The notes under the pieces: generated by a model
The model's database searches: none
What the model was told of the DNA's origin: nothing
What the model saw: the letters and a program-made list of their open reading frames with translations, nothing else
Shown here: one piece after another, positions 36,889-51,922 of the stretch
Numbering within the stretch: position 1 is the first letter of the stretch
Layout: the number at the start of each line of letters is the position of its first letter
Assembly (NCBI RefSeq): GCF_006334915.2
Contig: NZ_VDMA02000025.1
Location: forward strand, 1 to 64,000
Length of the DNA: 64,000 nt
Reading direction: 5' to 3'
Source of the DNA: Microbispora catharanthi
Lineage (GTDB): Bacteria > Actinomycetota > Actinomycetes > Streptosporangiales > Streptosporangiaceae
Program-made: the position numbers and the translations under genes

Positions 36889-38211
<1,323 letters not shown>

Positions 38212-38462
38212 TCTGTTGTTCTCCTGTCGGAAGGGTGGCCGTTCCCCGGGCCCCGCGTGCCGTCGTCGTTGACGGCCGCGAAAGGCGGACCGGGAGGAGC
38301 GACATCTGGATCAAATCGTGGACCGGGCGATCGCGATATAGGCCAATACGGAGATCGCCGGGCGGTATTTCGCCGTTCCGGCGCATAGGTGGCGCACGCC
38401 GTGAACGGCGGTGGACGGATGGGCGCAAGTCGCGCTTTGCCGTCCTTTTGCAGTAGACAGGG

Positions 38463-40049
38463 GTGGTGCCGGAACTTGTGCTGGGCCCGCTGCTGCGCCA
38501 CGTGGACGCGGCCGCCGCGACCGTCTGGGTGGAGACCTCCGAGCCCTGCACGGTCCGCGTGCGGGCCGGCGACGCCTGCTCGGAGGAGCGCACCTTCACC
38601 GTGCACGGCCACCACTACGCCCTGCTCGACGTCGGCATCGAGGGCCCGGTGGCCTACGAGGTGGAGCTCGACGACCGGCGGGTGTGGCCGGAAGAGGGCC
38701 TGCCGCCCAGCGTGATCCACCCGCTGACCCGCCTCGACCGGCTGATCTTCGGCTCCTGCCGCACCAGCGTCCCGCACGAGGAGCCGTACGTCCGCACGCA
38801 CGGCCCGGACGTCCTGCGGGCGTACGGCCTGCGCCTGATGGAGTCGCCGGACGCGCGGCCCGACCTGATCCTGCTGCTGGGCGACCAGGTGTACGCCGAC
38901 GAGCTCACGCCGGACATGAAGGAGTTCATCGCCGGGCGCAGGGACGAAGGGCCCGAGGAGGTCGTCGACTTCGAGGAGTACGCCGAGCTGTACCGGCAGG
39001 CGTGGTCCGACCCTCCGGTCCGCTGGCTGATGGCCACGGTGCCCACCCTGATGATCTTCGATGACCACGACGTCAGGGACGACTGGAACACCTCGAACGT
39101 CTGGCGCGAGCAGATGGCCGAGGTGCCCTGGTGGGAGCGGCGCATCGTCTCCGCGCTCGGCTCGTACTACGTCTACCAGCACCTGGGCAACCTGCCCCCG
39201 GCCGAGCGGGCGGCCGATCCCGTGCTCGCCGCGCTGCGGGCGGGCGGCGGCGACGAGGCGCTGGACACCTTCGCCCGGCGGGCCGACAAGGAGCCCGACT
39301 CGGTGCGCTGGAGCTACCACAGGGACCTGGGCGGCACCCGGCTGATCGTGCTGGACAGCCGCAGCGCCCGGGTGCTGGAGCCGGGACGCCGGCGGATGCT
39401 CGACCCCGGGGAGTGGGACTGGTTCGACAAGCACGCCACCGGCGACTTCGACCACCTGCTCGTCGGGTCCTCGCTGCCGATCCTGCTGCCCGCGGGGATC
39501 CACCACGTGGAGAGCTGGAACGAGGCGGTCTGCGACGGCATCTGGGGCCGCAGGGCGGCGCGGTGGGGCGAGCGGGTGCGGCAGTTTCTCGACCTGGAGC
39601 ACTGGGGGGCCTTCCGCCGGTCGTTCGAGGAACTCGCGCAGGTGGTGCTGGAGGTCGCCTCGGGCGGCCGGGGGAGGCCGCCCGCGACCGTCCTGCTGCT
39701 GTCGGGCGACGTCCACTACTCCTACATGGCGTCCGTGCGGCGCCGGGGCGGCGGGCGCGTCCACCAGGTCGTCTGCTCGCCGATCCGCAACCCGCTGAGC
39801 CGCACGCTGCGCTTCGCCAACATCGTGGCGTCGTTCGGGCTCGCGGGCGTGCTCGGCGGGGTGCTGGCCAGGGCCGGGGGCCTTCCCCGGCCGCCGTTGC
39901 GGTGGCGCATCAGCAAGGGACCCTGGTTCCCCAACATGATGACCGCCATCGACCTGGCGCCCGGGGAGGCCACGGTGACGTGGTTCACCGACACCGGCGA
40001 TCAGGACGCGGTGCGGATCAGGCCCGAGCCTCCCGCAGCACCGCGCTGA
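38463..40049 (+). CDS. PhoD-like phosphatase
   Basis: A 528-residue metallophosphatase. After an N-terminal beta domain (about 1-85) come GSCRTSVPHE, LLGDQVYADE, FDDHDVRDDWN and LLLSGDVHYSYMA, which carry the PhoD metal ligands. No signal peptide is visible, unlike classical secreted PhoD, so it is probably cytoplasmic and a phosphatase of unknown substrate. Adjacent GTG codons at 38463 and 38466 are candidate starts. Its last 32 bp overlap rocD convergently. Confidence 0.85.
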   Translation: MVPELVLGPLLRHVDAAAATVWVETSEPCTVRVRAGDACSEERTFTVHGHHYALLDVGIEGPVAYEVELDDRRVWPEEGLPPSVIHPLTRLDRLIFGSCRTSVPHEEPYVRTHGPDVLRAYGLRLMESPDARPDLILLLGDQVYADELTPDMKEFIAGRRDEGPEEVVDFEEYAELYRQAWSDPPVRWLMATVPTLMIFDDHDVRDDWNTSNVWREQMAEVPWWERRIVSALGSYYVYQHLGNLPPAERAADPVLAALRAGGGDEALDTFARRADKEPDSVRWSYHRDLGGTRLIVLDSRSARVLEPGRRRMLDPGEWDWFDKHATGDFDHLLVGSSLPILLPAGIHHVESWNEAVCDGIWGRRAARWGERVRQFLDLEHWGAFRRSFEELAQVVLEVASGGRGRPPATVLLLSGDVHYSYMASVRRRGGGRVHQVVCSPIRNPLSRTLRFANIVASFGLAGVLGGVLARAGGLPRPPLRWRISKGPWFPNMMTAIDLAPGEATVTWFTDTGDQDAVRIRPEPPAAPR

Positions 40050-41223
40050 GCTGGTCCACCGCCCAGGCCAGGTCGTCCCGGGAGACGACGAGGGGCGGCG
40101 CGAGGCGGATCGTCGAGCCGTGCGTGTCCTTGACGAGCACGCCGCGCCGCATGAGCGCCTCGCTGATCTCCCGTCCGGTGCCGAGCGAGGGGTCGATGTC
40201 GATGCCCGCCCACAGCCCGCGCCCGCGCACCGCCACCACGCCGGGGCCGAGGTCCGCCAGGCGGGCGTGCAGGAACGCGCCGAGCTCGCGGGCCCTGGCC
40301 TGGTACTCGCCGGTCCGCAGCAGCCCGACCACCGCGTCGCCGACGGCGCACGCCAGCGGGTTGCCGCCGAAGGTGGAGCCGTGCTGGCCGGGCCCGATCA
40401 CGCCCATGACGTCGCTGTTCGCGACGACCGCGGAGACCGGGACCACGCCGCCGCCGAGGGCTTTGCCCAGGACGTACAGGTCGGGGACGACGCGCTCGTG
40501 GTCGCAGGCGAACGTGTCCCCGGTGCGGCCGAGGCCCGACTGGATCTCGTCGGCGACGAACAGCACGTTGTTGTCGGTGCAGATCTCCCGGACCGCGGCC
40601 AGGTAGCCGTCCGGCGGGACCAGCACGCCGGCCTCGCCCTGGACGGGCTCGAGCAGCACGGCCACCGTGTTCTCGTCGATCGCCTCCCTGACCGCCTCGG
40701 CGGAGCCGTACTTGACGATCCGGAAGCCGGGGGAGAAGGGGCCGAAGCCGTCCCGGGACTCGGGGTCGGTGGAGAAGCCCACGATGGTCGTGGTGCGGCC
40801 GTGGAAGTTGTCCTCCATCACGACGATGTTGGCCTGGTCGGGGGCGACGCCCTTGACCTCGTAGCCCCACTTGCGGGCGACCTTGACGGCGGTCTCGACG
40901 GCCTCCGCGCCGGTGTTCATCGGCAGGACCATGTCCTTGCCGCACAGCTCGGAAAGGCCGGTCACGAACGCGGCGAACCGATCGTGGTAGAACGCGCGGC
41001 TGGTCAGGGTCAGCCGGTCGAGCTGCTCGCGGGCCGCCGCGAGGATCGCGGGGTTGCCGTGGCCGAAGTTCAGCGAGGAGTAGCCGGCGAGGCAGTCGAG
41101 ATACCGCTTGCCCTCCACATCGGTGACCCAGGCGCCCTCGGCCGAGCTGATCACGACGGGCAGCGGGTGGTAGTTGTGCGCGCTGTGGCTCTCGCTGAGC
41201 CGGATCAGTTCCTCGCTGTTCAT
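40018..41223 (-). CDS. rocD: Ornithine--oxo-acid aminotransferase
   Basis: A 401-residue class-III aminotransferase: PMNTGAEAVETAVKVARKWGY, NFHGRTTTIVGFS, EPVQGEAGV, FVADEIQSGLGRTG, and VLGKALGGG with the PLP lysine. The whole resembles RocD, which turns ornithine into glutamate semialdehyde. ATG at 41223 overlaps the upstream stop (ATGA). With the dimethylargininase-like gene and the Lrp gene it forms an arginine/ornithine catabolic operon; I know this trio from other actinomycetes. Confidence 0.93.
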   Translation of the reverse strand: MNSEELIRLSESHSAHNYHPLPVVISSAEGAWVTDVEGKRYLDCLAGYSSLNFGHGNPAILAAAREQLDRLTLTSRAFYHDRFAAFVTGLSELCGKDMVLPMNTGAEAVETAVKVARKWGYEVKGVAPDQANIVVMEDNFHGRTTTIVGFSTDPESRDGFGPFSPGFRIVKYGSAEAVREAIDENTVAVLLEPVQGEAGVLVPPDGYLAAVREICTDNNVLFVADEIQSGLGRTGDTFACDHERVVPDLYVLGKALGGGVVPVSAVVANSDVMGVIGPGQHGSTFGGNPLACAVGDAVVGLLRTGEYQARARELGAFLHARLADLGPGVVAVRGRGLWAGIDIDPSLGTGREISEALMRRGVLVKDTHGSTIRLAPPLVVSRDDLAWAVDQLSAVLREARA

Positions 41224-42074
41224 CGAATCTCCCTGTTCGGCCGGATCTCGAGGGTGCAGCACTTGGGCCCGCCGCCGGCCTTGCGCAGCTCGCCGAGGTC
41301 CACCGGGACGACCTCGAAGCCACGGCGCTTGAGTTCCAGGATCAGCCCGGTCGCCTCGGCGTTGACGACGACGTTGCGGCCGTCGCTCACCGCGTTGAGG
41401 CCCAGCACCTCCGCGTCCGCGGACGTGGCGATCACGGCGTCGGGGAACAGCCGCCGCAGCACCTTCCTGCTGCCCTCGCTGAACGCCTCCGGATAGTACG
41501 CCACGTTGTGGCCGTCCAGCGGAAACAGGGCGGTGTCGAGGTGGTAGTACCTCGGGTCGACCAGGCGCAGCGTGACGACCGGCCGGCCGAGGAACTCCTG
41601 GGCCTCCATGTGCGCCGCCACGTCGGTGCGGAAGCCCGTCCCGGCCAGGATCATCTCGTCGAGCGTCAGGTAGTCGCCCTCGCCCTCGTTGGTGAAGGAC
41701 GCCTCCAGTGTCTCGTATCCCCGTTCGAGGAACCACCGCAGGTAGGCGGGGCCCTCGGCGGCGCGTTCCGGGTGGGCGAACCTCGCTCCGTAGACCCGCC
41801 CGTCCACGACGAGCGCGCCGTTCGCGGCGAACACCATGTCCGGCAGGCCCTCGATCGGGTCGATCAGGCTGACGCGGTGGCCGAGCCCCTCGTACGCCTG
41901 CCGGAGGCTGTCCCACTGCCGCAACGCCCTGGCCGTGTCGGCGCCCTTCTCGGGATGCATCCACGGATTGATGGAATACGAGACCGTGAAGAACTCGGGC
42001 CGGCACATCAGGAAATGCCGGGCCGTACCCGTACGACCACTGTCCGTGGTCTCGGTGGCTGGCGCGAGTGTCAT
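41220..42074 (-). CDS. Dimethylargininase / arginine-deiminase-family protein
   Basis: A 284-residue guanidine-modifying enzyme: FLMCRPEFFTVSYSINPWM, DMVFAANGALVV, the GEGDYLTLDEMILAGTGFRTD segment, the catalytic histidine region YYHLDTALFPLDG, and the cysteine near the end in GGGPKCCTLEI. Family members hydrolyse methylated arginine or arginine to citrulline, or act as arginine dihydrolases yielding ornithine. The pairing with rocD favours a product feeding ornithine. ATG 42074 is chosen because GGAG lies 6 nt upstream; ATG 42086 is also in frame. Confidence 0.85.
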   Translation of the reverse strand: MTLAPATETTDSGRTGTARHFLMCRPEFFTVSYSINPWMHPEKGADTARALRQWDSLRQAYEGLGHRVSLIDPIEGLPDMVFAANGALVVDGRVYGARFAHPERAAEGPAYLRWFLERGYETLEASFTNEGEGDYLTLDEMILAGTGFRTDVAAHMEAQEFLGRPVVTLRLVDPRYYHLDTALFPLDGHNVAYYPEAFSEGSRKVLRRLFPDAVIATSADAEVLGLNAVSDGRNVVVNAEATGLILELKRRGFEVVPVDLGELRKAGGGPKCCTLEIRPNREIR

Positions 42075-42181
42075 CGTCGACTCCAAGCGGGAAACCGGGT
42101 GAACGGGACTTCAGCGTAGGAATCGGAAGGCGACAATCCAATGCGCCCGCGTTGCGATCACCTGTGGATCGGTTGCGTCCT

Positions 42182-42631
42182 TCACCCGTTTTGCAGCGAT
42201 CCGTTAATCAGCCGCGACAGCACGATCGAACTCTTGGTGCGCACCACGAACGGCTCGGCCGCCAGGCGTTCGATCACCCGCTCGACGTGCCGCACGTCGG
42301 TCGCGCGGATGTGCAGCAACGCGTCGGCCTCGCCGGTGACCGTGCAGGCGGAGACGACCTCCGGGTGCCGGGACACGGCCATGCCGATCTCCGCCGGTGA
42401 GGTCTTGCCCCGGCAGTACAGCTCGACGTACGCCTCGGTGGTCCAGCCGAGGGCCGACGGCTCCACCCGGGCGCTGAAGCCGGTGATCGCGCCGCTGGCG
42501 ATGAGCCGGTCGACCCGCCTCTTCACGGCCGGAGCCGACAGCCCCACTTGAGCGCCTATCTCGGCGTACGTCGCCCGGGCGTCCTCGACAAGGGCCCGGA
42601 TTATGGCGCGATCAAGCTCGTCCAACCTCAC
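42182..42631 (-). CDS. Lrp/AsnC-family regulator
   Basis: A 149-residue feast/famine regulator. The helix-turn-helix is LDELDRAIIRALVEDARATYAEIGAQVGLSAPAVKRRVDRLIASG, and the C-terminal RAM domain runs through VVSACTVTGEADALLHIRATDV. GTG at 42631 is the sensible start. It lies 107 bp upstream of the dimethylargininase-like gene on the same strand and probably senses arginine or ornithine for that operon. It is also the next gene downstream of the azomycin-like cluster. Confidence 0.9.
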   Translation of the reverse strand: MRLDELDRAIIRALVEDARATYAEIGAQVGLSAPAVKRRVDRLIASGAITGFSARVEPSALGWTTEAYVELYCRGKTSPAEIGMAVSRHPEVVSACTVTGEADALLHIRATDVRHVERVIERLAAEPFVVRTKSSIVLSRLINGSLQNG

Positions 42632-42702
42632 GTGGACCTGTATACAGCCGCCGGGCCCGGCATGCCCCGCCCCGGGCATGTGCCTGCGCCGCACCGGGCG
42701 TG

Positions 42703-42770
42703 CAGAGGGCGCGGGCACCCAGAGGGCGCGGGCACGCGGAGGACGCGGGCACGCGGAGGGCGCGAGCCCC
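42703..42770. repeat. Four 17-bp tandem repeats
   Basis: CAGAGGGCGCGGGCACC, CAGAGGGCGCGGGCACG, CGGAGGACGCGGGCACG and CGGAGGGCGCGAGCCCC follow one another without gaps between the Lrp start and the DsbA-like stop. AGAGGGCGCGGG can also pair with CCCGCGCCCTCT just downstream at about 42779-42792, so the region may fold into a terminator for the minus-strand cluster. Confidence 0.7.
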
Positions 42771-42807
42771 CTCGCCGGGCCCGCGCCCTCTCTTCGACGG
42801 CGGGTCG

Positions 42808-43524
42808 TCAGGCCGCCGTCTCGCAGATCAGCTCGGCCGCCCTGGCCAGCAGATCCGTGTAGACGGTCGGGTCGTCGGCCTCGATGACCGGGAAGCCCAC
42901 GCCGAAGTCGCCGTTGACCCAGCGTGCCCGCACGCCGGGATTGGCGACGTCGGTCCCGTCGTACAGGAACACGTGGGGGCTGCAGTCGACCCGGCCGTGC
43001 CGGGCCGTCTCGAACTGATCCATCACCGCCCGCCGGGCGCGGCCGTCGTCGAGCGCCTCGGCCAGCGCCTCGACGTCGACCGCCCCGGTGGAGGCCGCGA
43101 CGTCGAGGATCTCGTGCCGCAGCGAGATGCACCGGCCCTCGGCCCAGAAGGCCCGGCGCAGCGCCAGATCGAGCTGTTCCGAGGCGTGCAGGCTCTGCGC
43201 CTTGGCCGCCTGCACGGCCTCCAGGGGCGGCAGCATCGTGACCGGGTAGGTCCAGTCGGGCCCCTGCCACAGCCGCCAGCCGGCGCCGGGGTCGAGCGCG
43301 CCGACCACCGACACCTCCGAGTCCACCCCGGGGCGCTCGTTCACCGTCCGGTTGAACAGCTCCAACGGGAAGCAGCGGTGGTCGAACCACAGCCGTCCCT
43401 CCAGGCCGAGCCGCCGGCGCGCCTCGTGCAGGCGGTAAACGGCCAGGTGGGCGAAGGAGCAGTTGAGGTCGGAGAAGACCACGATCGTGTCGGGCGAGTC
43501 GGGCAGCCGCGGATCTCTGTTCAT
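42808..43524 (-). CDS. DsbA-family protein with a single N-terminal cysteine (first paralogue)
   Basis: A 238-residue thioredoxin-fold protein of the DsbA/FrnE/2-hydroxychromene-carboxylate-isomerase class: IVVFSDLNCSFAHLAVYRLHEARRRLGL, WFDHRCFPLELFN, and ASTGAVDVEALAEALDDGRARRAV. The usual CPWC is reduced to C22-S-F, so it cannot form the active-site disulfide and is likely an isomerase, transferase or thiol-binding protein. It is the last gene of the azomycin-like operon, with an ATGA overlap to the permease, and has a paralogue at 49125-49811. Confidence 0.8.
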   Translation of the reverse strand: MNRDPRLPDSPDTIVVFSDLNCSFAHLAVYRLHEARRRLGLEGRLWFDHRCFPLELFNRTVNERPGVDSEVSVVGALDPGAGWRLWQGPDWTYPVTMLPPLEAVQAAKAQSLHASEQLDLALRRAFWAEGRCISLRHEILDVAASTGAVDVEALAEALDDGRARRAVMDQFETARHGRVDCSPHVFLYDGTDVANPGVRARWVNGDFGVGFPVIEADDPTVYTDLLARAAELICETAA

Positions 43525-44984
43525 CTCGAATCACCTCCGGTCGGTACGGCCGTCCGCTCGGGGAACAGCCGGCACAGCGCGGCGTAGAGCAGCGCCGCCG
43601 TGCAGAACGGCACCAGGCAGCTCAGGTCCACCCCGCCCGCCAGGCGGGCGAACGGGCCGGTGTAGATCGTGTTGTCCACGAACAGCAGCCCCAGGACCAC
43701 CGCGGGGACGAACGCCCCCAGGGCCCGGAGGTTGAACCCGCCGGTGAACCAGTAGCCGCCCCGGTGGCCGGGCCGGGCGAAGCCGTACAGGTCCTCGGGG
43801 TGGTACCGGCCCCGCCGCAGGGCGAACCCGACCAGCATGATCGCGGTCCACGGCGAGACGAGGACGAGCAGGATCAGCACGAACGTCGAGATCGACTCGA
43901 TGGCGTCGAAGACGATCGCCCCGACGTAGAGGGTGGCGACGCCGAGTGCCCACATCAGCCACGTCGCGGCGGCGCGGGGGATCCGCCACAGGATGGAATT
44001 GGCCGACAGCCCCGCCGCGTACAGGCACAGTGCCGCCTGCGGCAGCGTGCCGGCGAACCCGAAGGCGATCACCACGACCGTGAACCAACGGGGCACGGCG
44101 TCGGCCACCCCGAGGATCCAGGGCGCCGAGCCGTTCTTCAGCATCGTGGTGACGTAGGCGCCGCCGACGAGCGCGAGCGCGTTGCTCACGTACATCGCCG
44201 CGCCGTTGTACGCCACCGCCGCCCGGTCGCGGACCCCGGGCGACAGGTAGCGGCTGTAGTCGCCCTGGAACGTCGAGTACGACACCGGGAGCGTGGCGCT
44301 GAAGGACACGGCCAGCAGCCAGGTCCGCCAGAAGTCGCCCAGCGCGTACGGCCCGCCCGCGTACGCCGGGTCGAAACCGGGCAGCAGCACCACGACCAGC
44401 GCCAGCAGCACCAGCCCGCCGATCACCGTCATGACCTTGTACGTCGCCAGCAGCGCGCCGTATCCGTACACCGCGACCACCACGACGGCCAGTGCCATCA
44501 GCGGCATCGTGACGGCGAGCCCCGCCGGGCCGGCCGGGGTGCCGAGCACCCGCTGGCCGGCCGCGAGGATGGCCGTCGCGCCCGTCCACACCGCGATCGA
44601 GAAGAACCCGATCGCGACCACGATCGTGATGACGTTGGCGACGACCCGGCCGCGCACGCCGAAGTGGGCGCCGCTGGACACCGCGTCGTTCGCGCCGGTG
44701 CGCTTGCCGAACAGCACGAGCGGTGCGAACACCGCCGTGCCGATCAGCAGCCCCACCAGGATCGCGGTGACGGAGGCCGTCCAGCTCAGGCCGAAGCTCA
44801 CCGGCACCGAGCCGAGCACCACCGTGCCGAACGAGAACTGGGCCGAGTGCCAGATCCACAGGAACTCGCGGGGCGAGGCGGTGCGCTCCCCGTCCGGGAT
44901 CCGGTCGACGCCGTGCGCCTCCACCCGCGTGCTCTGCCCGCTGACCTGCCCGGTGACCTGGGCGGGCAGCTCGCGGGTGGTCAC
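43521..44984 (-). CDS. NCS1-family permease (cytosine/purine/hydantoin type)
   Basis: A 487-residue transporter with about 12 membrane helices. REFLWIWHSAQFSFGTVVLGS at the N-terminus and SYSTFQGDYSRYLSPGVRDRAAVAYNGAAMYVSN in the middle are NCS1 signatures. NCS1 proteins carry flat nitrogen heterocycles such as cytosine, allantoin or hydantoin, so an imidazole would suit. GTG at 44984 overlaps the Rieske stop (GTGA), and the stop overlaps the DsbA-like gene (ATGA), placing it firmly in the cluster. Direction of transport is unknown. Confidence 0.88.
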   Translation of the reverse strand: MTTRELPAQVTGQVSGQSTRVEAHGVDRIPDGERTASPREFLWIWHSAQFSFGTVVLGSVPVSFGLSWTASVTAILVGLLIGTAVFAPLVLFGKRTGANDAVSSGAHFGVRGRVVANVITIVVAIGFFSIAVWTGATAILAAGQRVLGTPAGPAGLAVTMPLMALAVVVVAVYGYGALLATYKVMTVIGGLVLLALVVVLLPGFDPAYAGGPYALGDFWRTWLLAVSFSATLPVSYSTFQGDYSRYLSPGVRDRAAVAYNGAAMYVSNALALVGGAYVTTMLKNGSAPWILGVADAVPRWFTVVVIAFGFAGTLPQAALCLYAAGLSANSILWRIPRAAATWLMWALGVATLYVGAIVFDAIESISTFVLILLVLVSPWTAIMLVGFALRRGRYHPEDLYGFARPGHRGGYWFTGGFNLRALGAFVPAVVLGLLFVDNTIYTGPFARLAGGVDLSCLVPFCTAALLYAALCRLFPERTAVPTGGDSR

Positions 44985-45313
44985 GGAGCACCCGCCTCGG
45001 GCCGGACGGCCTCGGCGTACGCCGCCGCCTCCGCCGCCGACCGAGGAGACGCGGCGTCCTCGGGCAGCAGCGTGACGCGCAGCGACCCGCACGGCGGGCC
45101 GGCCACCTGCCGGCCGGTGAGCAGGTCGAACGTGGAGTGGTGCAGCGGGCAGGTGATCCGCAGCGTCCGCCCGTTGAGGTAGCCGTAGCGCAGCCGCCCC
45201 CTGCGGTGGGGACACTCCGCCTGGGTCAGCACCCGCCTGCCCGCCACCTCGATGAGCAGGAGGTCGGGCGCGATCTGGCGCAGCGAGACAGACCCACCCG
45301 GGTTGTCGGTCAT
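44981..45313 (-). CDS. Rieske [2Fe-2S] ferredoxin (RohT-like)
   Basis: A 110-residue stand-alone Rieske protein: C34-P-H36 and C55-P-L-H58 bind the cluster, in the order CPHRRGRLRYG...CPLHHSTFDLLTG. No oxygenase domain is attached, so it is an electron carrier. Its ATG overlaps the stop of the diiron oxygenase gene (ATGA), which makes it the probable electron donor. In the azomycin pathway, as I recall it, RohT is the Rieske partner of the N-oxygenase RohS. Confidence 0.85.
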   Translation of the reverse strand: MTDNPGGSVSLRQIAPDLLLIEVAGRRVLTQAECPHRRGRLRYGYLNGRTLRITCPLHHSTFDLLTGRQVAGPPCGSLRVTLLPEDAASPRSAAEAAAYAEAVRPEAGAP

Positions 45314-46158
45314 GCGGGCACCTTCCTCGCCCTGTCCACCGCCGCCTCCGTGGCCTCCGCGATGACGGCGCTGGTCAGCGTGACGCCGGCCCACACCTTC
45401 GCCAGGTCGACCTCGCGGTGCTCGCCCAGCGCCCGTATCGCGGTCTGCATCTGCTTGGAGTGGAAGCTGTCGATGTACAAATGTTCTGTGTAGTACCGGT
45501 CGTTGCTGATGCCGAGCCGTTTCGCCGCGGCCGCGAAGGGCTTGAAGGCGTACAGCACGCTGGCCTCGAAGTAGGCGTACGCGCCGAGGAAGTACTCCGG
45601 CGCCGGCGCCCGGTCGGCCAGCCAGTGGAACAGGTTGACGTACGCGAAGCTGGCGTCCCCGGCCAGGTCCACGTAGTGCTCCAGGTCGGCGGGCATGCCC
45701 AGCTCGGTCACCAGGTCGCGGTAGAGCCGCGAGTGCTCCATGTCGTCGTTGCCGCAGCCGAACTCGTCGATGAGCACGCGCAGCACGGCCATGCGCGCCT
45801 TCGACGGCAGGCGCCGCAGGATCCCGAGGTGGGACTGCGACTCCACCAGGCCGTCGACGGCGAACTCCGCGACCACCGTCTTGAACTGGTCGAGGGTGGC
45901 CTCCTCCGCGAGGAACCGCTCGTCGCCGGAGGGGTTGGCCTGTTCCTTGGCCAGCAGGTCGTGGAGCGCGTCGATCAGCTCGATGCGGAACCCGAAGCGG
46001 GGAGCGCGCTCCTCGTGCTCGGCGGCGAGACGCACCACCCAGTCGCGCTCGATCTCGCACAGCTCGGCGTACCTCTCGGGAGTGAGGACCGAGCGGTTGT
46101 AGACGTAGAGCCGCTTCTGGGCGGAGTCTCCGGGCCGGACCTCCAACATCCCGCTCAC
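45310..46158 (-). CDS. Heme-oxygenase-like diiron N-oxygenase (RohS-like)
   Basis: A 282-residue all-helical protein of the iron-containing redox enzyme (HDO) family. Candidate diiron ligands are visible in order: E106 and H110 (VESQSH), D131/E132 and H142 (IDEFGCGNDDMEHSRLY), E198 (YFEAS), and D230 with H233 (HLYIDSFH). The family includes the N-oxygenase domain of SznF and RohS, which oxidises 2-aminoimidazole to 2-nitroimidazole. The GTG start overlaps the aldolase stop, and the stop overlaps the Rieske gene. Substrate is inferred from the cluster. Confidence 0.85.
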   Translation of the reverse strand: MSGMLEVRPGDSAQKRLYVYNRSVLTPERYAELCEIERDWVVRLAAEHEERAPRFGFRIELIDALHDLLAKEQANPSGDERFLAEEATLDQFKTVVAEFAVDGLVESQSHLGILRRLPSKARMAVLRVLIDEFGCGNDDMEHSRLYRDLVTELGMPADLEHYVDLAGDASFAYVNLFHWLADRAPAPEYFLGAYAYFEASVLYAFKPFAAAAKRLGISNDRYYTEHLYIDSFHSKQMQTAIRALGEHREVDLAKVWAGVTLTSAVIAEATEAAVDRARKVPA

Positions 46159-46964
46159 CCCGCTTCCTCGACGACCGCGTCGGTGTCGATGACCCCGCGG
46201 CGGTGCAGTTCCTTCTTCAGGTGCCGGTACCAGTCGTCGTTGAACAGGCCGTACCGCTCACAGGTCGCGTCGATCTCGCGCTGCCGTCGCTCGGACGGCT
46301 GGGCGAGCATGGCGTTGGCGAGGCCGGGCTCCAGGTTGGCCAGGGGACCGATGAACCCGGCGACCCCGCCGGGCCCCGTCACCTCGTGCAGGAGGTTCTC
46401 CCAGCCCTCGAACACCGGGATCTCGGGGACCGCGGCGACGAGCTTCCTGGTGAACTCTGCCGACCCGCTGGACTCCTTGATGCCGACGACGCCGGGCAGG
46501 GCGCAGACGCGCACCAGGGTGTCCAGTTCGATCTGGTTGCCCGACAGGGCCTTCTCGTTGTAGACGAACAGCGGGACCGGCACGGCCTCCCGGATCGCCC
46601 GGTAGTGCTCGTAGATCTCCTCCTGCGTGAGGTCCGGTGAGAAGGGGGTGGTGACGGCGATCGCCGCCACGCCGAGGGCCTGGGCCTCCTTCGCTCTGGC
46701 GATCACCTCCTCGGTGGTCGGCGACTGCACGCCGGCCAGGACGGGCAGCCCGTCCGCGTGGCGGACGGTGTACGCGACCACCTCGTGCCACTGCCGATCC
46801 GACAGCTTCCATCCCTCGCCGGTGGACAGGGCGGGCATCAGCCCGGTGACCTCGCTCCTGAGGGACTCGACGAGCCGTCGTACGCTCGGCTCGGACACCT
46901 CGCCCGCCTCGGTCAGGGGCGTGACCATGGGGACGATCGTCCCCGAGTGCTTTGCTGGATACAC
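46155..46964 (-). CDS. DapA-family aldolase (RohR-like retro-aldolase)
   Basis: A 269-residue class-I aldolase of the dihydrodipicolinate synthase/N-acetylneuraminate lyase superfamily. The Schiff-base lysine is K163 (VVGIKESSG), the catalytic tyrosine Y135 (LFVYNEKAL), and ALSTGEGWKLS replaces the usual GTTGE-like substrate loop. In this cluster the expected reaction is retro-aldol cleavage of 4-hydroxy-2-oxo-5-guanidinovalerate to pyruvate and guanidinoacetaldehyde, the step I recall for RohR. GTG start at 46964; the gene follows the small PIN-like gene by 8 bp. Confidence 0.87.
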   Translation of the reverse strand: MYPAKHSGTIVPMVTPLTEAGEVSEPSVRRLVESLRSEVTGLMPALSTGEGWKLSDRQWHEVVAYTVRHADGLPVLAGVQSPTTEEVIARAKEAQALGVAAIAVTTPFSPDLTQEEIYEHYRAIREAVPVPLFVYNEKALSGNQIELDTLVRVCALPGVVGIKESSGSAEFTRKLVAAVPEIPVFEGWENLLHEVTGPGGVAGFIGPLANLEPGLANAMLAQPSERRQREIDATCERYGLFNDDWYRHLKKELHRRGVIDTDAVVEEAG

Positions 46965-46972
46965 GGGTCACC

Positions 46973-47479
46973 TCACAGGTCGTCGACGTCGACTCGCAGG
47001 GCCAAGGACCGCTCGTAGAGCCGCTCCAGCGGCGCCGGGAACACCGGTTCGTCATCGGCCGGCTTCGCCGGCTCCACCGGCCGGACCGGGAGGTCGGGGC
47101 GCAGGCTCAGCCGGGGGCTGGCCGTGACCACGACCGTGTCGCGGCGCATCGCCATCGCCACGAGCAGCCGCTCGTGCAGCGGAAGGTCCGACAGCGCCCC
47201 GGCCTCGAGGGCGAGGCGCAGGTCCTGCTCGTCGTAGCCGATGCGGTCGATGGCCATGTCGGAGTGGAGGTTGTCCATGAACGGGTAGTACTCGTCCTGC
47301 GCCTCGCGGGGGTATCGCCAGACCAGGTCGTCGCACCGCCCGACGTGCTCCAGGCTCATCAGGACGTGGCCGCCGGACAGGCGCTCGGTGAAGAAGCGCT
47401 TGCACCCCCGCCGGACGTCGTCGTCGCGGCTGTGCATGCCCATGAACAGGGCGGCGTCGAGGAAGGGCTTATCGCTCAT
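46973..47479 (-). CDS. PIN-like small protein within the cluster (DUF6190-like)
   Basis: A 168-residue protein. [25 protein letters not shown] near the start, an internal SLEHVG, and [26 protein letters not shown] near residue 110 follow the strand-helix pattern of PIN domains, with acidic residues at two of the expected sites. I believe such proteins are annotated DUF6190. It overlaps the end of the arginine oxidase gene by 11 bp and precedes the aldolase. By position it could be the cyclase/dehydratase that closes guanidinoacetaldehyde to 2-aminoimidazole (RohQ role), but nothing in its sequence proves that. Confidence 0.7.
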
Positions 47480-48680
47480 AGCCGAGCAGCACCTCACGCA
47501 TCCGGTGCATGGCGCAGGCGAAGGTGCCGGGCCGGCGGGCGAGGGCTACGCGGATGTAGCGCTCGCCCTTCGCCGGGTCGTTCCAGTAGAAGTACGTGCC
47601 GGGCAGCACGTAGATCTCGTCCTCCAGCAGCCGCTGCTGCAGCTCGCTCGCGGTGAGGTCCTCCGGCTTGATGCGGAACCACGCGACGCTCGTGTTCACC
47701 ACGGGCTCGACGTACTCGAGGATCGTGCCCTCGACGGCCTTGACGGCCATCGCCCGGTTGTCGGTGATGACGTCGCGCACCGAGGCGAAGTTGTCCTCGA
47801 TGGAGTCCTCGACGTACTGGGTGAGGAAGTTGAGGACGAACGGCGAGACGTTCAGCAGGACGGCCGTCTGGATGTTGTAGACCTCCTCCTTGATGTCGTC
47901 GCTGACTGTCAGCATCGCGCACTTGGCGTCCTGCACCGGCCAGGTCTTGCCGGTGTCCTCCAGCGCCATGTACGAGACGCCCGACTCCTCCAGCAGCTCG
48001 TAGATGTCGATGCGCCCGATCTTCTCGTCGCACAGCGCGAACGACGCGAAGCACAGGTCGAGCATCAGCAGCTTGCCGTGGTCCTTGCAGTAGCGGATGA
48101 CCTCGCGGAATCCGTCCATCCCGTACTGCAGGAGGCTGAACCCGGTCGGATTGTTTGGGTCGACCAGATAGAGCGCGTCTGTTTCCAGCGTGCTCAGGTT
48201 CGCGTAAATGCGGGCCGGATCGGCGAGCGACTCCTCCGGCAGCGCGGTGAGTTCGACCTGCATGTGCTTGAGCAGGTCGACGAGATTGTCGAAGCACGGC
48301 TCGATGAGACCGACCGACATGTTCCGCTGCATCAGGTACATGGCGGCGACCATTGTGGAGACGCTGGCCGAATACGACAGCCAGGTTTTGCCGGCGGCCG
48401 CCGCGGTGGGCTGCCTGTGCAGCCGGAAGAAGGCGTCGATGAATCGGCGCTCGAAATACGCCTGCTGGTTTTCCTCGGCCTCGTACCACAGGTCGGGGAG
48501 CCGGGAGACGATCTTGTCCTGGCCGGCGGACTGACGCTGGTGGGTGTGTGCGTCGGCGAGGTTCCACCGGGTCTTCAGGGCCTGGATCTCGTGCTGGGTG
48601 AGGTCGACGAACCCGGTCACGTCCGGCGTTCCGGACGCGCTGAGCGGCGTCTCTTCGATTTCCGAACCGACATTGTTCAT
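47469..48680 (-). CDS. PLP-dependent L-arginine oxidase/hydroxylase (MppP/RohP-like)
   Basis: A 403-residue fold-type-I PLP enzyme. Features shared with MppP of the enduracididine pathway are [19 protein letters not shown], the [15 protein letters not shown] stretch, [27 protein letters not shown] (175-180), D208, and the PLP lysine K245 in [13 protein letters not shown]. These enzymes use oxygen to convert L-arginine to a 4-hydroxy-2-oxo acid rather than transaminate it. ATG at 48680 has an AGGGA site upstream. It is the first gene of a seven-gene overlapping operon and preceded by a 444-bp gene-free region. Confidence 0.88.
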
Positions 48681-49124
48681 GACAGATCCCTTCACTGGTG
48701 CGGAACATGGAGTAGCGCAAGAGTGGTGCGGGAAGACATGCGTCGGAGGCGGCGGTTTCGCCGCGAGCTCCTTCTTACGGAGAAGCAGGGAGGAACGTCA
48801 CTCCCGTTTTGCCCGCGATGGGCGATGCAATAAAAGGTACGTCTCACTTACGGCGGAGTCAACGGGTGAGACGGGAAATGCTTCTTTCCGGATTTCCGGA
48901 ATGGTCCGGCTTTCGCGTCACCGGACGCTGACCCTGGGTAATCAAAATTCGCATCGATTATCCCAGGAATGGGGATCGTCCATAAAGAATCGGCGCGCGT
49001 CGACGTCCCGGCGCGCGCCGATGAAAGAGCCGGTCGCGTGCTGCGCCGGCGGGCCACGCGGGTCCGCCGGCGTTCTGTGCCCCTGGGAAAGGGCTGTTCT
49101 GTGTTACCGGGGGGAGGGCTTCGG
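48681..49124 (-). promoter_or_regulatory. Promoter region of the azomycin-like operon
   Basis: This 444-bp stretch holds no convincing gene and is lower in GC than its flanks, so it should contain the operon promoter. An imperfect inverted repeat CTGGGTAATC (48934-48943) / GATTATCCCAG (48956-48966), with one bulged base, lies about 260 bp upstream of the first start codon and is a candidate regulator site. No regulator gene is embedded in the operon itself. Confidence 0.4.
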
Positions 49125-49811
49125 TCAGGCGGCGGCGCGCTTGAGGATGTCCTCGAACACGCTCGGATCGTCGGAGGAGACGACGGGCCAGCCGATGCCG
49201 TACGAACCCACCCAGCCGACCTCGATTCCGGGGTTGGCGTGGTCGGTGCCGTCCGGCAGGAACAGGTGCGGGCTGCAGTTCACCCGGTCGGTCGCCGCGA
49301 TGGCGGCCTGTTCGGACAGCGTCCTGCGGGCCCGGCCGTCGTCGAGTGCGGCCGCCAGGGCGTCCACGTCCACCACGCCGGTGGACGCGGCGGCGTCCAG
49401 GATGACCTTGCGATGGCTGATGCACCGCGACTCGGCCCAGAATGCCTTCCGCAGCGCCAGGTCGAGCTGTTCCGACGCCGCGAACCCCTGCTCCTTGGCC
49501 GCCTGGACGGCCTCCAGCGCGGGCAGCGTGGTGGACGGGTAGAGCCAGTCCTTCGCCTGCCACAGCTGCCACCCCGCGTCGGGCTCCAGCGCGGCCATCC
49601 GGCCCACCTCGCTGTCGGTCCCCGGCCGGGGACTGGGCGCGTCGTTGAGCAGTTCCAGGGGGAAGGCGCGGTGGTCGAACCGGACCCGGTCGGTCAGGCC
49701 CAGCCGTTCCCGGGTCCTGTGGAGCCGGTGCACGGCTATGTGCGCGAAGGAGCACCAGATATCCGAGAAGATGATGATGGTGCCGGGCTCCGGGGTCAGT
49801 GTCGTCGTCAT
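49125..49811 (-). CDS. DsbA-family protein with a single N-terminal cysteine (second paralogue)
   Basis: A 228-residue thioredoxin-fold protein close to the one at 42808-43524: IIIFSDIWCSFAHIAVHRLHRTRERLGL, RFDHRAFPLELLND, EAVQAAKEQGFAASEQLDLALRKAFWAESRCIS and ASTGVVDVDALAAALDDGRARRTL. C20 is kept while the second redox cysteine is replaced by phenylalanine (WCSF). It belongs to the TetR-controlled operon with the MBL-fold gene 32 bp upstream. Its ribosome binding site is AAGGAG. The two paralogues flank the azomycin-like operon. Confidence 0.8.
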   Translation of the reverse strand: MTTTLTPEPGTIIIFSDIWCSFAHIAVHRLHRTRERLGLTDRVRFDHRAFPLELLNDAPSPRPGTDSEVGRMAALEPDAGWQLWQAKDWLYPSTTLPALEAVQAAKEQGFAASEQLDLALRKAFWAESRCISHRKVILDAAASTGVVDVDALAAALDDGRARRTLSEQAAIAATDRVNCSPHLFLPDGTDHANPGIEVGWVGSYGIGWPVVSSDDPSVFEDILKRAAA

Positions 49812-49843
49812 CGACGTTCTCCTTGTGTCGTGCCTCGTATCGC

Positions 49844-50668
49844 TCAGGCCGCGCCGGCGCTGAGCGTGGCCCCCTCGTGCTTGGCGAGCACGGCCTCCAC
49901 CAGCACGTCCTCGTCCGGCAGCCACGGCGTCATGGAGGGCACCTCGCGCAGCGTCTTCACGAGCGTCTCGGTGCCCTCCACGACGGTGGCGCCGTGTGAG
50001 CTGAGGATGTGCCGGGGGGCGAGCCGGAGCAGGTCGTCCAGCACGGTGTCGAACTTGGCCGGGTCGGCCAGTGCGGTCCAGGGGGCGTTGGCCCTGGTGA
50101 ACAGGGCCATCCCGGCGAGGTAGTCGCTCTCCGGGATGTCCTGGGCGTCCTCCGCCAGTGTCGGCAGGATCGCGCCGAAGCTGTCCGCGCTGAACAGCGA
50201 ACGGGTGGCGTGATCATAGAGGGCCAGCGTCGAAGGGGAGTCGTAGGCGGGCGGGCGCAGCAGGGAGACGATCCTGCCCCCGAGGTCGAGCGTGCGGCCG
50301 GGGTTCACCTGCAGGACACGGTTCGGGGGCACGTCCCACTCCTCGCCGAGCCGCGCGACGGCCAGGCCGTTCGTGATGACCTTGGCCTGCGGCGCCGCCA
50401 TGAGGACTTCCTTGAGGTTGCCCGCGTGGTCCCTGTCGTCGTGCGTGAGCACAATCCAGCGCAGGTCGGCCGGGTCGACCAGGGACCACAGGGCCTGTTC
50501 GAAGTAGCCGCGGTCGATCGCCATGCCGGTGTCGACGAGGATCGGCTGCGGGCCGCGGATCAGGTAGGCGTTCACCGGCAGCAGGCCGGCGCCGGTGATG
50601 GGGAGGGACGACGGCAGCGTGGTGACGCCGGGTGTCGCCTCGTAGGGGCTGCGCAGATAGGAGGTCAT
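49844..50668 (-). CDS. Metallo-beta-lactamase-fold hydrolase
   Basis: A 274-residue MBL-fold protein. The metal motif is LTHDDRDHAGN (H76-x-D78-x-D80-H81), where the usual second histidine is aspartate; this H-x-D/E-x-D-H variant also occurs in flavodiiron-type ODP domains. Further ligands are likely in SADSFG and SSHGATVVEG. The N-terminus LPVNAYLIRGPQPILVDTGM is typical. No flavodoxin domain follows. It could hydrolyse an ester, amide or thioester, or act on a nitroheterocycle. It lies between a transporter and a DsbA-like gene in one operon. Confidence 0.8.
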   Translation of the reverse strand: MTSYLRSPYEATPGVTTLPSSLPITGAGLLPVNAYLIRGPQPILVDTGMAIDRGYFEQALWSLVDPADLRWIVLTHDDRDHAGNLKEVLMAAPQAKVITNGLAVARLGEEWDVPPNRVLQVNPGRTLDLGGRIVSLLRPPAYDSPSTLALYDHATRSLFSADSFGAILPTLAEDAQDIPESDYLAGMALFTRANAPWTALADPAKFDTVLDDLLRLAPRHILSSHGATVVEGTETLVKTLREVPSMTPWLPDEDVLVEAVLAKHEGATLSAGAA

Positions 50669-50698
50669 GGAGGGGGGTCCTTTCCGCGGTGGGTTGAC

Positions 50699-51727
50699 TC
50701 AGGTGAGCTGGACGAGCACCGAGCCGACGATGAGCAGGGCGAGACCGGACAGGCGCGGCGCGGTGAGCGGGCGGCGGGGCAGCCGGAGGAAGCCGTAGTT
50801 GTCGATCACGGCCGAGGCGACCTGCTGGCCGGTCACGGTCAGCGCCACGGTGGTGGCGGCGCCGATCGTGGGGATGAGCGTGAAGGTCGCGGTGACGTAC
50901 GCCGCGGCGCAGGCGCCGCCGAGCCAGCCCCACCAGGGCATCGTGCGCAGCCCGCCGAGCTGCGGCCGGGGGGTGCGGCGCGTCGCCAGCAGGACGAGCA
51001 GAACCACGGCGATGGTGATCGTGGCCACGATGAAGCTGATCATCGCGGTGGTCACCGGCTCGTGGATGTCCTTGCGCAGCGCGGCGTTGACCGCCCCCTG
51101 CACCGGCAGGACGGCGCCGGCCACGATGCCCAGCAGGATCCAGCCGCCCTGGCCGAGGCCGCCGCTCCGGCGTACGGCCGCCGCCGTCGCGGCCGGGGCG
51201 GTGACGGTGGCCGTCCCGCCACGGGCGGGAGTGCCGGGAGCGCCGCCGGGCGCCGGTCCCGCCGCGGGCGGCGACTGCGCCGGGCGCTGTCCCCGGATGA
51301 TGACCGTGATGCCGGCGAGGACCGCGAGCGCGCCGAGCGCGATGCCGACGCTGAGCGGCTTGCGCGCGATGCCGAACAGGCCGAACAGGTCCAGCCCCAG
51401 CGACGCGAACATCTGACCGGTCACGAACAGGCCCGCCGCGGCCAGCGCGCCGAGGCGGGGGAAGAGCAGGATCCCGCTGGTGATGTAGAGCGGGCTGGCC
51501 AGACCCCCGAGCAGGTGCCAGAAGGGCACGCCGGGCACGAGGCGGACGGCGCCGATCGCTCCGACCGCGACCGCGAGGAGCGCCAGCAGGGCCGTCGCCA
51601 CGCCCAGTTGCAGGGTCGAGGCGCCGTACGGCGTCCCCACGGCCTTGTTGAGCTGGAGATTCACCGAGGCTTGCACTGCCAGTAAGCAGCCGACCAGCAG
51701 TGCCGAGGCGAGGAACAGGGCATGCAT
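50699..51727 (-). CDS. DMT-superfamily transporter, tandem YdcZ (DUF606) type
   Basis: A 342-residue membrane protein made of two homologous halves of about five helices each. The first starts ALFLASALLVGCLLAVQASVNLQLNKAVGTPYGAST and the second WILLGIVAGAVLPVQGAVNAALRKDIHEPV. They are joined by a proline/alanine-rich linker of about 50 residues (about 150-200). This is a fused YdcZ pair. ATG at 51727. It is the first gene of the DMT-MBL-DsbA operon and is divergent from a TetR gene, which suggests regulated export of a small toxic compound. Confidence 0.85.
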   Translation of the reverse strand: MHALFLASALLVGCLLAVQASVNLQLNKAVGTPYGASTLQLGVATALLALLAVAVGAIGAVRLVPGVPFWHLLGGLASPLYITSGILLFPRLGALAAAGLFVTGQMFASLGLDLFGLFGIARKPLSVGIALGALAVLAGITVIIRGQRPAQSPPAAGPAPGGAPGTPARGGTATVTAPAATAAAVRRSGGLGQGGWILLGIVAGAVLPVQGAVNAALRKDIHEPVTTAMISFIVATITIAVVLLVLLATRRTPRPQLGGLRTMPWWGWLGGACAAAYVTATFTLIPTIGAATTVALTVTGQQVASAVIDNYGFLRLPRRPLTAPRLSGLALLIVGSVLVQLT

Positions 51728-51775
51728 CGCGATCCCTCTTCTAGAGAACCGGATTTCCGAGAAGCCGGACCAGAA

Positions 51776-51825
51776 CCGGACATGGTGTCCGGATGAGCGT
51801 AAGGCAAAAGTGGACGCTCTGTCCA
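51776..51825. promoter_or_regulatory. Two GGAC-N5-GTCC operators between the DMT operon and tetR
   Basis: CCGGACATGGTGTCCGG at 51776-51792 and TGGACGCTCTGTCCA at 51811-51825 share a GGAC-N5-GTCC core, with centres 34 bp apart, about three helical turns. They fill the space between the two divergent start codons. The adjacent TetR regulator should bind both and control the transporter operon and itself. Confidence 0.7.
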
Positions 51826-51922
51826 CATCGTTCCGCCGGGGGGCTACCATGTCCTCATGAACAACGGGTTTATGGATCCCGGCGGGAACCGGAGGAACGG
51901 CCGCGTTCCGTCGGAGGGGACC

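Follow-up and report, generated by a model that had tools for sequence, protein, structure and literature searches.

The window analysed here is a 64,000-nucleotide stretch of DNA from Microbispora catharanthi, which carries on its minus strand an operon with homologues of the rohPQRST genes of the azomycin pathway. Azomycin is 2-nitroimidazole, the natural compound from which the nitroimidazole drugs derive. Seven open reading frames, all free of internal stops, form one tightly packed run across positions 42808-48680, as the initial annotation had described (Table 1). The rohP and rohQ genes overlap by 11 bases, rohQ and rohR are 8 bases apart, and rohS, rohT, the NCS1 permease gene and dsbA1 each start with a 4-base overlap with the preceding gene, the start codons of the operon genes having been chosen among several candidates. 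From rohP to dsbA1 the products fall into the Pfam classes Aminotran_1_2, DUF6190, DHDPS, Haem_oxygenas_2, Rieske, Transp_cyt_pur and DSBA. The conserved unit is, however, longer than the seven genes originally listed. Beyond a 444-base gap upstream of rohP, it continues on the same strand with dsbA2 and the genes for a metallo-β-lactamase (MBL)-fold protein and a YdcZ-type exporter, separated by 32 and 30 bases.

Table 1. Genes of the roh operon and its upstream extension in the window.
Gene and product	Position	Strand	Length (aa)	Best evidence
rohP, pyridoxal phosphate (PLP)-dependent arginine oxidase/hydroxylase	47469..48680	-	403	PDB 6c3a, E 4e-159
rohQ, cyclodehydratase, DUF6190	46973..47479	-	168	PF19689, E 1.6e-65; PDB 9c5w/9oq8, E 8e-25
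rohR, DapA-like retro-aldolase	46155..46964	-	269	PF00701, E 9.7e-37
rohS, haem-oxygenase-like diiron N-oxygenase	45310..46158	-	282	PDB 9pfx (PbrRohS), E 1.5e-49
rohT, Rieske ferredoxin	44981..45313	-	110	PF00355, E 3e-9
NCS1-type permease	43521..44984	-	487	PF02133, E 3.7e-44
dsbA1, single-cysteine (CSFAH) DsbA-fold protein	42808..43524	-	238	PF01323, E 1.1e-9
dsbA2, dsbA1 paralogue, CSFAH motif	49125..49811	-	228	PF01323, E 1e-11
MBL-fold protein, putative ODP (oxygen-binding diiron) type	49844..50668	-	274	PF00753 and PF19583
YdcZ-type (DMT) membrane exporter	50699..51727	-	342	PF04657, E 3.2e-61

We compared the operon with the best 80 of 92 confirmed loci from named genomes recovered by a RohQ alignment search, each fetched with 10 kb either side. 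A locus was called complete when all five roh genes were found by tblastn at E ≤ 1e-6; some queries began a few residues off the true start, and the YdcZ query lacked its first 19 residues. Indeed, 71 of the 80 loci were complete and all of these kept the published order P-Q-R-S-T, in agreement with the compact azomycin-type enzyme set that had been proposed for the window. Two of them, L045 and L106, belong to the azomycin strain S. eurocidicus ATCC 27428, and either may be the published cluster. With all five genes clustered in so many loci, their association is not a matter of chance. The nine incomplete loci are L068, L085, L089-L091, L095-L097 and L107. Within the window's family, the RohQ domain PF19689 was found in 11 of 341 genomes, and RohQ had no match in the plasmid collection. 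The loci closest to the window, among the best 80, are those of M. rosea, M. hainanensis, M. bryophytorum and M. oryzae.

The identity of the five enzymes is supported by matches of RohP, RohQ and RohS to solved Roh structures. The rohP product matches PDB entries 6c3a-d with 533 bits and MppP much less closely (E 8e-54, 186 bits); it thus groups with RohP and MppP and not among ordinary transaminases. No NCBIfam model that it touched scored it above the cut-off, whether for ordinary transaminases or for MppP; on the MppP model of the enduracididine pathway (TIGR04462) it reached 174.3 bits against a curated cut-off of 450. All eight positions checked in RohP, including the PLP lysine, are identical in the window and in 71/71 complete loci; the residue labels used for RohP and RohS are those we take to apply to MppP and SznF, respectively. 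The second gene product, first described as a PIN-like small protein, is RohQ, since it belongs to DUF6190 and has two matches in the PDB that bear the name RohQ. Among the complete loci its Glu50 and His78 each differ in one locus, and His22 and Asp80 are variable. RohR, one of six DHDPS-family proteins encoded in the genome, stays below the curated cut-off of the dapA model TIGR00674 (122.5 against 206 bits). Its Schiff-base Lys163, Tyr135 and Glu50 are identical in the window and every complete locus, and the Ser47 and Thr48 positions vary between S and T. RohS is nearest to PbrRohS and more weakly related to SznF (E 5e-11); its six putative iron ligands are the same throughout, as are the two Cys and two His ligands of the RohT Rieske centre, and Thr88 of RohS is variable (T in 52 of the 71). 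Judged by sequence, the catalytic residues of RohP, RohR, RohS and RohT are intact, including those expected of the aldolase and the diiron oxygenase. Gene identity, gene order, active-site residues and conserved linkage are direct observations of this comparison.

A concatenated tree (FastTree, without support values) and gene content agree in dividing the loci into three groups. Group A, which includes the window, combines YdcZ, MBL and dsbA2 (35/71 complete loci), and an NCS1 permease is present in 31 of these 35. Group B has dsbA1 without MBL (22/71), a PRMT-like methyltransferase in 21 and a multicopper oxidase in 16 of its 22 loci. Group C has a divergent dsbA2 and an FCD regulator, and comprises six complete loci plus L107, with the regulator in 7/7. 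Locus L035 is labelled B but is placed in clade A and has neither methyltransferase nor multicopper oxidase, and the eight complete loci without a dsbA gene are scattered over several places in the tree. With L035 left out, RohS identity between groups A and B is at most 52%. Between the window and L045, identity is 64% for RohP, 56% for RohQ, 51% for RohR, 51% for RohS and 52% for RohT, against 76% for dsbA1, whose homologue lies 5 kb downstream of rohT in L045. In L045 and its group B relatives (12.4-18.1 kb), rohT is followed by the PRMT-like methyltransferase, a 1262-residue multicopper-oxidase protein and dsbA1; the closest PDB chains to the methyltransferase are PRMT6, and a methylated product is conceivable in this group.

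Five genomes hold two roh loci each (L045/L106, L078/L102, L039/L104, L038/L069 and L051/L081), mostly mixing groups, for example B and C in S. eurocidicus, S. olivoreticuli and S. albireticuli. At G117:C28:63609-64092 (L017, L018), RohQ is split over two adjacent frames by a frameshift or a sequencing error.

Several of the Roh enzymes that have been studied could be placed on this scheme. The RohP of 6c3a groups with B (81% identity to L045, 63% to the window), and the A. terrae locus L076 is also group B, its RohS being active in the published assay (PMC10724926; the papers cited here by PMC number were available in part). KaRohS is 64% identical to A. terrae RohS (PMC10724926), which exceeds the A-B maximum, so it probably belongs to group B as well. 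SaRohS could not be assigned to a group, and the PbrRohS of known structure comes nearest to L108, a gammaproteobacterial locus (51%), with 35% identity to the window RohS. Because the studied enzymes that could be placed lie in B or match proteobacterial Roh, we infer, rather than observe, azomycin as the group A product.

Among the companion genes, a DsbA-like gene lies within the fetched 10 kb in 63/71 complete loci. The eight without one are L047, L069, L070, L072, L086, L088, L103 and L108, of which L047 and L070, and probably L072, are cut by contig ends; the L047 genome (G030) carries YdcZ-MBL-dsbA2 on another contig, and the L069 genome has dsbA2 at its second locus, L038. Both window copies read CSFA at the position of the CXXC active site of thiol oxidoreductases. 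The motif CSFAH is found in 72 of the 73 copies compared across the 80 loci and the window, both window copies among them, with copies covering under 80% left out; the exception is the dsbA2 of L100. Among 19 DsbA copies from stretches without roh, seven have CSFAH (one from the roh genome G030), one CAFGH and eleven C-P-[FW]-A. A sequence comparison of DsbA2 with the PDB gave no meaningful match (best E 0.42). Both DsbA subtypes occur together in the window, four named Microbispora, Nocardia sp. NRRL S-836, Kutzneria sp. 744 and L100. Distant DsbA-fold relatives away from roh were also noted (L168 7046-9070, L173 5956-6561 and L175 6426-7031), which adjoin a PNPOx-like protein and an MBL protein, or an FMN-reductase/flavodoxin-like protein.

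In the 341-genome family, with at most 7-8 candidates scored per genome, close dsbA2 homologues (>370 bits) occur in 11/11 roh genomes and 6/330 others, and close MBL homologues (>250 bits) in 11/11 and 0/330, the next best reaching 199 bits; weaker MBL relatives are present in 328/341. The MBL protein passes the cut-off of PF19583 with 48.1 bits, and its motif HDDRDH is invariant in 15 aligned sequences. The diiron motif of ODP/flavodiiron proteins is of the HxExDH type, where the aligned sequences carry D rather than E. An NCS1 permease gene lies near rohT in 32/71 complete loci, and its product possibly transports the product or a precursor.

How might these proteins work together? For homologues, the published enzyme order runs from arginine through RohP, RohR and RohQ to RohS (PMC10724926). 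In the window, RohP would oxidise L-arginine and RohR would split the 4-hydroxy-2-oxo acid so formed into guanidinoacetaldehyde and pyruvate. RohQ would then close the ring to 2-aminoimidazole, and RohS would convert the amino group to the nitro group of 2-nitroimidazole, probably with electrons from RohT. The permease and the YdcZ exporter may move product or precursor, and the single-cysteine DsbA-fold and ODP-like MBL proteins may protect against reactive nitroso or hydroxylamino imidazoles, or act in tailoring, a reading suggested by linkage and motif only. We consider it likely that the window holds an azomycin operon joined to an uncharacterised protection and export module; azomycin production by this strain and every accessory function are what we infer from the genes.

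Several points weigh against this interpretation. In the literature found, no chemically tested member of group A was identified, the window's strain included, and two RohS homologues sharing 78-81% identity with KaRohS yielded azomycin in trace amounts or not at all (PMC10724926). The roles of the accessory genes (DsbA-fold, MBL, YdcZ and NCS1) are putative. Genes for DsbA-like proteins and YdcZ are also found away from roh, as the six roh-less family genomes with dsbA2 illustrate, and 36/71 complete loci lack MBL and YdcZ. The available part of PMC12713392 does not mention a DsbA for the Pseudomonas roh clusters. The poor in vitro activity of some RohS homologues could also mean that the operon is silent or stops at 2-aminoimidazole, with an inactive group A RohS or RohT. 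A scan of 42500-51900 for standard promoters likewise found none, although shuffles led us to expect only 0.5 and such scans miss many actinobacterial promoters. We regard a silent or truncated pathway as very improbable, given that the iron and Rieske ligands are all kept in the complete loci and that the operon is intact in five Microbispora genomes, with 75-98% identity per protein (L020-L023 against the window).

The divergence of group A from the group of studied enzymes, seen in RohS and in its own accessory genes, would also fit an operon that makes an azomycin derivative or another N-oxidised 2-aminoimidazole, in which the DsbA-fold and MBL proteins serve as tailoring enzymes and not in protection. 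The PRMT-like methyltransferase of nearly all B-labelled loci does suggest that products may differ between groups. However, all five core enzymes are shared, with unchanged residues, no recognisable methyltransferase is present in group A (0/36 A-labelled loci), and of the three RohS sources assayed, two gave plain azomycin (PMC10724926), which makes a derivative unlikely. Returning to an azomycin operon with its protection and export module, we propose tentatively, as a possibility still short of the favoured one, that the single-cysteine DsbA-fold family of actinobacterial roh loci acts directly on azomycin or its nitroso or hydroxylamino forms, in dedicated self-protection or maturation, and does so in group A together with the putative diiron MBL protein and the YdcZ exporter. 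Our literature searches returned nothing linking azomycin to self-resistance, nitroimidazole to the DsbA family or Microbispora to azomycin, which does not imply absence from print. The accessory set around roh is without description in the literature found, and the available parts of the azomycin papers (PMC12713392, PMC10724926, PMC11659421, PMC12511057) give no account of how a producer tolerates its own nitroimidazole. The DsbA-fold, MBL and YdcZ genes are concrete candidates for such tolerance.

Within Microbispora, roh is present in 5 of 15 genomes. Another four carry YdcZ and dsbA2 beside Lrp but lack roh, MBL, NCS1 and dsbA1 at that place. Of the rest, three carry YdcZ alone, two carry neither gene, and in one the contig ends at the site. 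In G072, the segments corresponding to window positions 50697-49831 and 49115-42681 are missing between flanks that are 95-96% identical, and in G073 the whole of 50697-42678 is missing. In a locus tree of three linked genes, rooted at the midpoint, G072 (dsbA2, no roh) pairs with the window as its sister (bootstrap 92), and the roh-bearing G068 has the YdcZ-only G073 as its sister (100). The block borders agree to a few bases across the three genomes compared, and recombinational exchange of alleles therefore fits as well as independent loss; we do not claim repeated loss of roh with dsbA2-YdcZ retained. Microbispora with and without the roh block offer a natural comparison. If the DsbA-fold proteins do act on azomycin, the roh-less dsbA2-YdcZ pair would be a stand-alone azomycin protection unit.

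Downstream, the operon is followed by genes for an Lrp-type regulator, an ArgZ/DDAH-like hydrolase and an aminotransferase (assigned as rocD by eye), with a PhoD-like gene and glutamate dehydrogenase on their far side. These neighbours (36889-42660), and the match of the hydrolase to PDB chains Sll1336/Alr4995, could be read as ordinary arginine catabolism in which the operon takes part with the regulator, hydrolase and glutamate dehydrogenase. We reject this reading as extremely improbable because the two distributions are uncoupled: the hydrolase is present in 15/15 Microbispora genomes against 5/15 for roh, and among the 80 named loci it lies beside roh only in four Microbispora. The arginine genes are therefore core neighbours of the roh block.

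Some incomplete loci have other gene combinations. In Nostoc/Desmonostoc (L089, L090 and L091, at about 8.8-11.8 kb), the fetched 20 kb hold RohQ and RohS but no homologue of RohP or RohR. A PRMT-like methyltransferase adjoins RohQ, and in L089 RohS and RohT are fused into one protein; this is perhaps another route into 2-aminoimidazole chemistry. In Woesearchaeota L095 and L097 (9.0-12.3 kb), RohQ and RohR homologues are flanked on one side by a 326-residue protein, for which the L095 copy gave no Pfam match, and on the other by a glutamate-dehydrogenase-like protein. No RohP, RohS or RohT was found in the stretches fetched for these two loci, and L096 has RohQ alone.

To conclude, the pathway itself is already known, and the window represents a divergent group of a known family in which the companion genes are the poorly characterised part. 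The initial annotation had named Streptomyces cattleya as the origin of the reconstituted pathway, a species that we take to be the source of the RohP structure only. The published five-gene azomycin cluster rohPQRST is that of S. eurocidicus ATCC 27428 (PMC12713392), and the RohS assay concerns Kitasatospora azatica, AtRohS and SaRohS being active in the same assays (PMC10724926); a further azomycin producer has a 16S sequence that most resembles those of S. albireticuli and S. eurocidicus (PMC12511057). Known resistance is represented by NnhA, a 2-nitroimidazole nitrohydrolase of the guanidine-modifying superfamily (PMC11659421). The window hydrolase at 41220-42074 belongs to the same superfamily, but matches Sll1336/Alr4995 and bacterial DDAH chains, with no NnhA among its nine PDB matches; we did not adopt it as a resistance gene because all 15 Microbispora have it. 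Compared with MppP of the enduracididine pathway, the window RohP is of the same enzyme family and keeps the eight active-site positions compared, but is much closer to RohP and falls under the MppP equivalog cut-off. The iron-ligand positions of the window RohS align with those of SznF from the streptozotocin pathway, whereas the protein (282 residues) lacks the SznF-type extra domain and is nearer to PbrRohS. The DsbA-like proteins share the Pfam DSBA domain of the DsbA/HCCA-isomerase/GST-kappa fold (PF01323), assigned by sequence, with CSFAH instead of CXXC. Finally, the window has the same five genes, order and catalytic residues as the rohPQRST clusters of S. eurocidicus, K. azatica (KaRohS) and Pseudomonas spp., but it lies in a different sequence group and is accompanied by YdcZ, MBL, dsbA2 and NCS1, where S. 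eurocidicus L045 has a methyltransferase and a multicopper oxidase, L106 an FCD regulator and Pseudomonas luxRI. The window adds to the azomycin pathway an operon from Microbispora together with a sequence group without an identified tested member, and azomycin-type loci emerge as carrying group-specific companion sets with one DsbA-fold protein in common.

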